Below, piece by piece: positions 9,729 through 47,751 of a stretch of DNA of 64,000 nucleotides. A model generated the notes under the pieces. That model made no database searches. It was not told where the DNA came from and worked only from the letters and a program-made list of their open reading frames with translations. The DNA comes from an uncultured Paracoccaceae bacterium (GTDB lineage Bacteria > Pseudomonadota > Alphaproteobacteria > Rhodobacterales > Rhodobacteraceae), in NCBI GenBank assembly GCA_947499635.1, contig CANMPD010000001.1, positions 62,001-126,000 on the forward strand, written 5' to 3'. Position 1 is the first letter of the stretch; every line of letters begins with the position of its first letter. Both the position numbers and the translations under genes were made by a program.

Positions 9729-11036
9729 ATGGAGCATCTCGAAGAATTGCAGGGCCGTATAAAGGCCGCGCTGGATCGTATTGGATCCGGCGTTGGGGCT
9801 TTGGATGAAAAATACGCCAATCGTCCGCCCGAGGTGGTCGAAGTTGCCGCAGCGTCTAATGCGGACGCGGATGCTGCGTTGCTTGAGGCACTGGAGGATG
9901 AAAAAACCGCCAATGCTCAGCTTGAGGCGCGCAATACGCAGCTGCATGGCCGTATTGTTGAAATGGAAAAAAAGGTCGCGGCTGTCGACAAGGTCGACCA
10001 TGTGGTCGCGCTTGAGGCCGAGTTGGAGCTTTTGCGCAACGAAGCCAATAGTGCTGTAACTGCCACAAGCGCAATTGAGGCGCTGAACAGTGAAGTAAAC
10101 CGTCTCAAAGGTGAACTTGAGGGGGCTCGTAACGAGTTTGCGAGCGAAAAAGAAACATTTGAAGACGAGATCGCAGCGCTAAAAAACCGTCTTACTGATT
10201 TGCAAGAGGCGGCTGAAAGCACGGCGGCTGATCCTTCGGTGACGGATTCTTCGGAGACTGAGACGCCCGTTCAAGGTGACGTCTCGGACGCGACTGTCGA
10301 TGCAAGTGCCGCGGACACCGCTGCGGTTGAAGCAGCAACTGCGGCGCTACAACAAGAGGTCGACGCGCTTAAGGCTGAGCTTGAGAAGTCACAGACAGAT
10401 GCGCAGGCCTTTGCGCAGGCAGCCGTGGATTCGCAAGAAGCAGAAGTTGCAGCTAAAGCGATGACCGAAGCCGCAGAAAAAGCATTGGCGACTGCGCAAC
10501 AAGAGGTTGCTGCTGGGACACAGGCACTGAGTGACGCGCAGGCGAAAGCCACTTCGACCGCGCAGGCTCTAGCTGAATTGCAAAATTCTTCACAATCCGA
10601 GATCGAAGCTGCGCAAGATGCAGCGCTTGAGGCACAAAGCGCCGCAACGCAGGCACAACAGCTGGCTGCTCAGGCAGAAGAACGCGCCCTTCAAGCCGAA
10701 GAGGCGCAGGCAGCAGCACCAGCCGAAACCGCCGTAGATGAGACATTGACGGTTACGAGCCTAGAAACACGTCTGCAGGAGTTGGACGCGCGTTTAAACA
10801 CGTTACGTGCCACCAATGATGAACTGACAAAGGCCAATGCGGCCCTGCGTCAGGCGATTTCCGAAGGTCTGGGAGACGCAGGTTTGATTAATCAGGGTCT
10901 TGAGGCCGAATTGGCCGCTGCCAATGCGGCTCGTGATGCGGACCAGGCCGAGGTCAACGCGATCCTTGCGCGCCTTGAGATGCTACTGCCCGAGGCTCCG
11001 ACGCTACAAGCCGTAACCCCAGAGGGAGACGCGTAA
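9729..11036 (+). CDS. Long alanine/glutamate-rich coiled-coil protein, probable ZapA partner (ZauP-like)
   Basis: A 435-residue soluble protein almost wholly built of heptad-like Ala/Gln/Glu/Leu sequence: a first coiled coil (about 50-165), an acidic low-complexity linker (about 165-205, many D, T, V), a very Ala-rich coiled coil (about 205-340) and a final coiled coil (about 345-425). No enzymatic motif or signal peptide is visible. Its stop overlaps the zapA start (TAATG at 11036), so the two are translationally coupled. In Caulobacter a coiled-coil protein, ZauP, is encoded upstream of zapA and acts with it on the Z ring. This protein may be a much longer counterpart. Homology cannot be shown by eye. 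Confidence 0.8.
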   Translation: MEHLEELQGRIKAALDRIGSGVGALDEKYANRPPEVVEVAAASNADADAALLEALEDEKTANAQLEARNTQLHGRIVEMEKKVAAVDKVDHVVALEAELELLRNEANSAVTATSAIEALNSEVNRLKGELEGARNEFASEKETFEDEIAALKNRLTDLQEAAESTAADPSVTDSSETETPVQGDVSDATVDASAADTAAVEAATAALQQEVDALKAELEKSQTDAQAFAQAAVDSQEAEVAAKAMTEAAEKALATAQQEVAAGTQALSDAQAKATSTAQALAELQNSSQSEIEAAQDAALEAQSAATQAQQLAAQAEERALQAEEAQAAAPAETAVDETLTVTSLETRLQELDARLNTLRATNDELTKANAALRQAISEGLGDAGLINQGLEAELAAANAARDADQAEVNAILARLEMLLPEAPTLQAVTPEGDA

Positions 11037-11560
11037 TGCCCGAACTTACTATTCATATTGGTGGCCGCGCCTTTGAGGTGTCATGCCAAGAAGGCGAAGA
11101 GAGCTTTCTGCAGATGGCGTCAAAGATGTTAGACGACGAAGCGCAGGTGCTTTCCGACCAAATTGGTCGCGTGCCCGAGGCGCGTATGCTGTTGATGGCT
11201 GGCCTTATGTTGGCGGATAAAACTGCGGCGGCAGACGACCGAAACCGCGAGCTAGAGGTGGAGCTTGCTCAGCGAGTTGCTGAAATCGAAGAATTACGGG
11301 CCGCGCCTGCGCCAGAACCAGAGCAAGTTGAAATCATACCACCCCAAGTCCAGGAAACACTGGAGGTTCTTGCCACACAAGCGGAGGCCCTCGCAGATGA
11401 CCTAGACGCGCGCCTTGCGGGGGACACATCCGTTGACGCCGAAGCCTCGCCTATGGCTGATGTAACTGACGAAGCGGATGTTCTCGCAGTTTCTCCGGGC
11501 GATAGTGATGCGCCAGAGGCACCCGAACCTAATGTACCTGACGAGACCGTCGGCGTTTAG
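11036..11560 (+). CDS. zapA: Cell division protein ZapA with acidic C-terminal extension
   Basis: A 174-residue protein. The N-terminal ZapA domain (about 1-90) starts with MPELTIHIGGRAFEVSCQEGEE and contains the helix MLLMAGLMLADKTAAADDRN. ZapA binds FtsZ and bundles filaments at the division site. The usual ZapA length is about 100-130 residues; here an acidic, Pro/Ala/Glu/Asp-rich tail (about 95-174) follows, which looks disordered. It starts at the last base of the coiled-coil gene and forms a two-gene operon with it. A 10-bp hairpin follows the stop. Confidence 0.9.
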   Translation: MPELTIHIGGRAFEVSCQEGEESFLQMASKMLDDEAQVLSDQIGRVPEARMLLMAGLMLADKTAAADDRNRELEVELAQRVAEIEELRAAPAPEPEQVEIIPPQVQETLEVLATQAEALADDLDARLAGDTSVDAEASPMADVTDEADVLAVSPGDSDAPEAPEPNVPDETVGV

Positions 11561-15677: not shown

Positions 15678-15707
15678 AAAAAAAAGGGCCGAGCACTAAG
15701 CTCGGCC
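15678..15707 (-). terminator. Intrinsic terminator on the minus strand, without an obvious gene before it
   Basis: A perfect 8-bp stem (GGCCGAGC/GCTCGGCC at 15687-15694 and 15700-15707) is followed on the minus strand by one C and eight T. The nearest upstream minus-strand gene is the LysR gene, whose stop is 293 bases away, so a short independent transcript is possible. Confidence 0.75.
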
Positions 15708-15790
15708 TAAGTCCAACAGGGAGGTATGAAGTGCGCGATGCGCTCTCTTCATATCTATCATTTAGGAAGTCACTCAGCTTTACGCAAGAC
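15678..15790 (-). ncRNA. Candidate small RNA ending at the minus-strand terminator
   Basis: Read on the minus strand, a first hairpin (ATGAAG and CTTCAT arms with inner GCGC pairs, 15726-15752) is followed by an unpaired ACCTCCC, then the GGCCGAGC terminator. Hairpin, single-stranded anti-Shine-Dalgarno-like stretch and terminator is a common small RNA plan; CCTCC-type loops occur in Rhodobacter small RNAs. The 5' end is a guess. No protein-coding frame of useful length fits here. Confidence 0.3.
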
Positions 15791-47392: not shown

Positions 47393-47469
47393 CGGGGCGT
47401 GGCGCAGTCTGGTAGCGCACCTGTTTTGGGTACAGGGGGTCGTGAGTTCGAATCTCGCCGCCCCGACCA
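47393..47469 (+). tRNA. tRNA-Pro (anticodon TGG), copy 1
   Basis: A 77-base cloverleaf: acceptor CGGGGCG with CGCCCCG, D-stem GCGC/GCGC, anticodon stem CCTGT/ACAGG with loop TTTGGGT giving anticodon TGG, T-arm GTGAG-TTCGAAT-CTCGC and encoded ACCA. It is identical to the copy at 47675. Confidence 0.98.
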
Positions 47470-47674: not shown

Positions 47675-47751
47675 CGGGGCGTGGCGCAGTCTGGTAGCGC
47701 ACCTGTTTTGGGTACAGGGGGTCGTGAGTTCGAATCTCGCCGCCCCGACCA
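47675..47751 (+). tRNA. tRNA-Pro (anticodon TGG), copy 2
   Basis: Identical 77-base sequence to copy 1 with encoded ACCA, 282 bases further on, as part of a tandem duplication. A second copy raises the dose of the tRNA reading CCA and probably other CCN codons. Confidence 0.98.

Follow-up and report, generated by a model that had tools for sequence, protein, structure and literature searches.

A helical protein encoded directly ahead of zapA in a Rhodobacteraceae genome is most likely an orthologue of the division factor ZauP with a greatly enlarged middle

The probable zauP-zapA locus

Here, we describe a gene pair in 64,000 nucleotides of DNA from an uncultured Paracoccaceae bacterium (GenBank assembly GCA_947499635.1, contig CANMPD010000001.1, positions 62,001 to 126,000), the whole of which is called the window below. 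The upstream gene, most likely zauP, is named so throughout. The features of the pair are as follows (window coordinates).

9729..11036, + strand: probable zauP, 435-aa helical protein (ATG-start open reading frame [ORF]; same-place ORF in relatives; C-terminal module profile matches)
11022..11028, + strand: Shine-Dalgarno-like GAGGGAG for zapA, within the last zauP codons (sequence; site match in relatives)
11034..11038, + strand: TAATG stop-start overlap of zauP and zapA (recurs in relatives)
11036..11560, + strand: zapA, 174 aa (PF05164 at 60.8 bits, cut-off 23.8; single copy)
11342..11425, + strand: ZapA C-terminal helix, residues 103 to 130, conserved throughout the family (alignment, structure model)
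11420..11557, + strand: ZapA acidic tail, final 46 residues (modelled with low confidence; patchy in the genus)

An earlier sequence-only reading of this DNA had reported a 435-residue ORF overlapping the zapA start by one base, and this was confirmed (9729-11036); the zapA ATG takes its A from the last base of the zauP TAA stop (11034-11036). The zapA regions of 49 relatives and 80 named Rhodobacteraceae loci were compared, and nearly all had an ORF terminating at the start of zapA or shortly before it (one named locus was partly masked). The same reading had raised the absence of the pair from relatives as a point against a division role; the pair is instead present across the Rhodobacteraceae loci, with an ORF ahead of zapA in all 80 named ones. 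In the named loci, the overlap was one base in 74/80, eight bases in 5, and none in 1. The recurrence of both pair and overlap argues that the arrangement is not due to chance. The gene tkt adjoins the pair in 111/113 loci, and a profile of the ZauP C-terminal module (A3) matched 246 of 298 family genomes, with a single match in nearly all. On the tkt tree, the zauP-zapA locus of one record titled Nocardioides marinus (L159) falls with Leisingera, and that assembly is probably mislabelled.

A Shine-Dalgarno match of at least 5 bases lay inside the last zauP codons in 71/80 relatives (versus 8.7% of control positions). The site in the window is a weaker match (GGAG, 4 bases). The C-terminal EGEE/EGED of many ZauP relatives would correspond to the codons carrying this site. 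Together, the overlap and the matches in relatives fit coupled translation, in which ZauP and ZapA would be made together from one operon and zapA would be translated by reinitiation or from a ribosome-binding site within the last part of zauP. No sigma-70 promoter or terminator was found above chance near the pair, and an Rfam search directly behind zapA matched no known RNA. 6S RNA does lie directly behind zapA in several other alphaproteobacteria (e.g., G038, G040, G045, and G047); in the window's genome it is on a different contig from zapA (G000:C4:197181-197333, − strand). Elsewhere in the window, a SorX small RNA match at 15681-15768 (− strand) narrowly passed the family's gathering score (46.8 versus 46.6 bits), and two tRNA genes with identical scores lie 282 bases apart (47393-47466 and 47675-47748, + strand), perhaps as a tandem duplication.

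ZapA is the sole copy in the genome (PF05164 match, 1.6e-16, residues 5 to 87) and has the usual domain, followed by a long helix, a linker, the helix at 103 to 130, and the 46-residue tail. An 80-residue acidic tail had been proposed; the last 46 residues are indeed acidic (13 acidic, no basic), and the remainder is the linker and the conserved helix. By eye, about ten of 17 members of the window's genus (apparently Tritonibacter/Epibacterium) have an acidic tail of this kind. Growth of the tail with ZauP length was rejected within the genus (Spearman −0.33, P = 0.20).

Probable kinship with ZauP

Outside Rhodobacteraceae, the protein before zapA is about 50 to 105 aa long; locus L072 departs from this range, but the longest frame there is unlikely to be the true gene. 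ZauP is a known kind of protein encoded ahead of zapA throughout the alphaproteobacteria, and in other orders these short proteins match DUF4164 (PF13747), and they resemble the window's protein in position, in the first 25 residues, and in their short helical ends. When the first 25 residues of the window's family were aligned with a short DUF4164/ZauP-like set (hhalign), the profiles matched start to start and scored 31.6 and 33.5, compared with 17 to 20 for reversed profiles and at most 15.8 for shuffled ones; kinship was judged in this way via the short proteins of other orders and concerns 25 helical residues plus position. DUF4164 itself scored 14 bits at the window locus (cut-off, 27.2), so the ORF is not filed as a PF13747 member; the Caulobacter control genome likewise gave no hit above the cut-off. 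Matches to TPR_MLP1_2, FlaC_arch, and SMC (Pfam/NCBIfam) also fell below their cut-offs and are typical for helical low-complexity sequence.

Conserved position and the N-terminal match together make the ORF most likely zauP, and the window's gene most likely orthologous to a known division factor, with its middle greatly enlarged. We put the probability at roughly 0.8 that ORF 9729-11036 is zauP, with ends that carry binding and a middle that serves as a helical linker of adjustable length. Another explanation would be that an unrelated helical gene with a different role displaced zauP beside zapA in Rhodobacteraceae; Pfam DUF4164 misses the tested Rhodobacteraceae proteins, and homology is hard to prove with helical low-complexity sequence. 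Such a displacement is improbable, given that short forms of 78 to 92 aa occur within the family at the identical position (L047, L060, and L229) and that the start-to-start match exceeds both the reversed and the shuffled controls.

The link to Caulobacter ZauP, proposed earlier from the letters of the window, is borne out by gene position and the N-terminal profile match. Caulobacter crescentus ZauP (CCNA_03357) is likewise helical and encoded directly before zapA in one operon (PMC7188993, PMC7858052), and both genomes hold a ZapA gene and a ZapT gene (a candidate in the window's genome). The Caulobacter protein is small (26 kDa including a SUMO tag), whereas that of the window reaches 435 aa through its enlarged middle. 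Caulobacter ZauP binds ZapA and the C-terminus of ZapT and is found at midcell with ZapA (PMC7188993, PMC7858052); by analogy, the window's ZauP is predicted to bind ZapA and ZapT and to sit at midcell. The job done in Caulobacter by ZauP and ZapT is that of ZapB and MatP in enteric bacteria. Escherichia coli ZapB (PF06005) is alike in principle, being a helical ZapA partner that joins the Z-ring to a terminus-binding protein, but its partner is MatP, not ZapT (PMC7858052), and it has no significant sequence match to the window's ZauP (residues 1 to 75 scored 16.9 bits, where 31.5 are required; 0.0089 over 18 residues).

Conserved ends and a length-variable middle

Alignment of 55 homologues and an AlphaFold model divide the protein into the following parts.

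9729..9818, + strand: N-terminal conserved module, residues 1 to 30 (MEHLEELQGRIKAALDRIGSGV...), in all aligned homologues (residues 1 to 25 match the DUF4164/ZauP-like set above controls)
9864..9953, + strand: second N-terminal conserved module, residues 46 to 75 (occupancy 1.0 in 55 homologues)
9954..10763, + strand: length-variable middle, residues 76 to 345, mostly predicted helix (AlphaFold, occupancy, dN/dS)
10224..10583, + strand: segment of the middle almost restricted to the window's species, residues 166 to 285 (occupancy mostly 0.02 to 0.31)
10764..10988, + strand: C-terminal conserved module, residues 346 to 420, two helices and a GLGDAGLIN turn (alignment, AlphaFold, profile A3)

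Across the 55 homologues, residues 1 to 30, 46 to 75, and 346 to 420 are conserved, and residues 76 to 345 vary in length. AlphaFold predicts helices at 2 to 30, 34 to 86, 89 to 167, 194 to 329, 339 to 378, and 384 to 419 (mean pLDDT, 80.5), with a disordered stretch of low pLDDT at about 170 to 194, inside the private part. Heptad character is limited to parts of the protein (about residues 1 to 28, 113 to 165, and 337 to 378), and residues 225 to 330 form an Ala/Gln/Glu-rich helix with few large hydrophobics. The window's residues 206 to 345 have helical periodicity above shuffles (z = 4.0), whereas the middles of 63 long homologues on average have none, and for this reason "helical linker" is preferred here to "coiled coil" as a name for the middle. 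Of the coiled coil described in the sequence-only reading, mostly predicted helix was seen, with heptads in parts; the middle is not a clear heptad coiled coil.

In sets of close relatives, dN/dS of the middle was 0.04 to 0.19, similar to that of the N-terminal end (some sets approach saturation of dS, and the sets cover neither the Ruegeria middle nor the window's private part), which indicates that the middle is constrained as protein by purifying selection. Expansion of zauP by DNA tandem repeats was considered and rejected, as only one minor 29-base array was found.

The basal length of ZauP in Rhodobacteraceae is about 160 aa. Among named relatives the median is 252 aa, with extremes of 92 and 474 aa, and the window's genus spans 271 to 435 aa; when each genus was represented once, the open frame of the window ranked in the top 5 of 149 among the matches listed. 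A 474-aa ZauP-like frame in a Phaeobacter (L155:1577-2998) has an extra Pro/Ala-rich tail at its end. On the tkt tree (FastTree), the minimum number of switches between long and short ZauP was 8 with the cut-off at 200 aa, 9 at 230 aa, and 11 at 260 aa. The long form had been suggested to be specific to one clade, but it is found in many Rhodobacteraceae genera and arose repeatedly, so that claim does not stand; the window's long ZauP is the extreme of a widespread trend.

A scaffold or spacer role of ZauP, as first suggested, is possible. A length-tuned spacer, in which the middle would set the distance from the Z-ring layer to the terminus DNA, or the spacing of FtsZ filaments, and length itself would be adaptive, agrees with the fixed ends and variable middle, with the low dN/dS of the middle, and with a single 136-residue helix in the AlphaFold model, which standard helix geometry would make about 20 nm long. 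The disordered break at about 170 to 194 indicates, however, that ZauP is not one rigid rod, and ZauP length shifts often among relatives. These frequent changes (at least 8 to 11), together with the want of periodicity above shuffles in the 63 long middles, favor tolerated growth, in which a helix-prone low-complexity middle drifts in length while its helical, soluble, and acidic character, not its length, is selected. Against such drift stand the low dN/dS, which constrains residues and says little on length, and the exact length of 265 aa common to about ten Ruegeria genomes, though these are close kin.

The ZapT candidate and a predicted link to the terminus

Caulobacter ZapT is a MerR protein whose gene adjoins ihfA; it binds terminus DNA, and its C-terminus binds ZauP (PMC7188993, PMC7858052). 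The window's genome has a ZapT candidate outside the window, encoded after ihfA (G000:C2:136015 onward; L112, L080), with 808 aa arranged as a MerR domain (PF13411, 2.5e-17), a stretch of approximately 675 residues in which A, P, S, T, E, and D abound, and a C-terminal helix. It resembles Caulobacter ZapT in its MerR domain, ihfA neighborhood, and C-terminal helix; the Caulobacter protein is about 21 kDa including its tag, and the length of the candidate comes from the 675-residue middle, which is acidic (net charge, −125) and disorder-like. The C-terminal helix of ZapT candidates matches its counterpart in other orders with scores exceeding the controls, although the match is weaker for the window's genus. 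Candidates are 623 to 940 aa long in that genus where the frame is complete and 125 to 563 aa in other sampled family members, with open frames of 605 to 1032 aa in a few other genera. One ZapT frame (G013, L114) leaves its contig end in the perfect repeat ATEATEATE, which suggests that slippage may drive growth of the ZapT middle.

ZapT as well as ZauP is long in the window's genus, as a length-tuned spacer might predict. Coordinated lengthening of the two was rejected, since a comparison of 106 genera gave no correlation between their lengths (Spearman 0.07, P = 0.44; ORF lengths, uncorrected for kinship). This leaves a coordinated spacer unsupported, and we consider the length-tuned spacer doubtful, at about one chance in four. 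For tolerated growth, which the same result favors because ZauP length follows neither ZapT nor ZapA, the odds appear about even. The presence of both stretched proteins in the window's genus may be coincidence; that the whole Z-ring-to-terminus link is stretched there, by a long helical ZauP and the disordered ZapT segment of about 675 residues, is unlikely, somewhat more so than the tuned spacer. If true, the terminus would be on a long leash to the division ring, and the reach of the leash would be evolving.

Under the preferred reading of the ORF as zauP, the protein would oligomerize, attach to ZapA at the Z-ring, and bring in ZapT, which would hold the replication terminus. The conserved ends would provide the binding and oligomerization surfaces, and the middle, about 270 residues here, would act as a helical linker whose length can be adjusted.

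In the literature, little was found on which parts of ZauP matter. In these marine bacteria, the middle of the probable ZauP is enlarged several-fold, with both ends unchanged. Rhodobacteraceae offer natural ZauP length variants from 78 to 474 aa, and because the ends are fixed across them, residues 1 to 75 and 346 to 420 are likely contact surfaces. The same variants make any role of the distance between the Z-ring and the chromosome terminus simple to probe.
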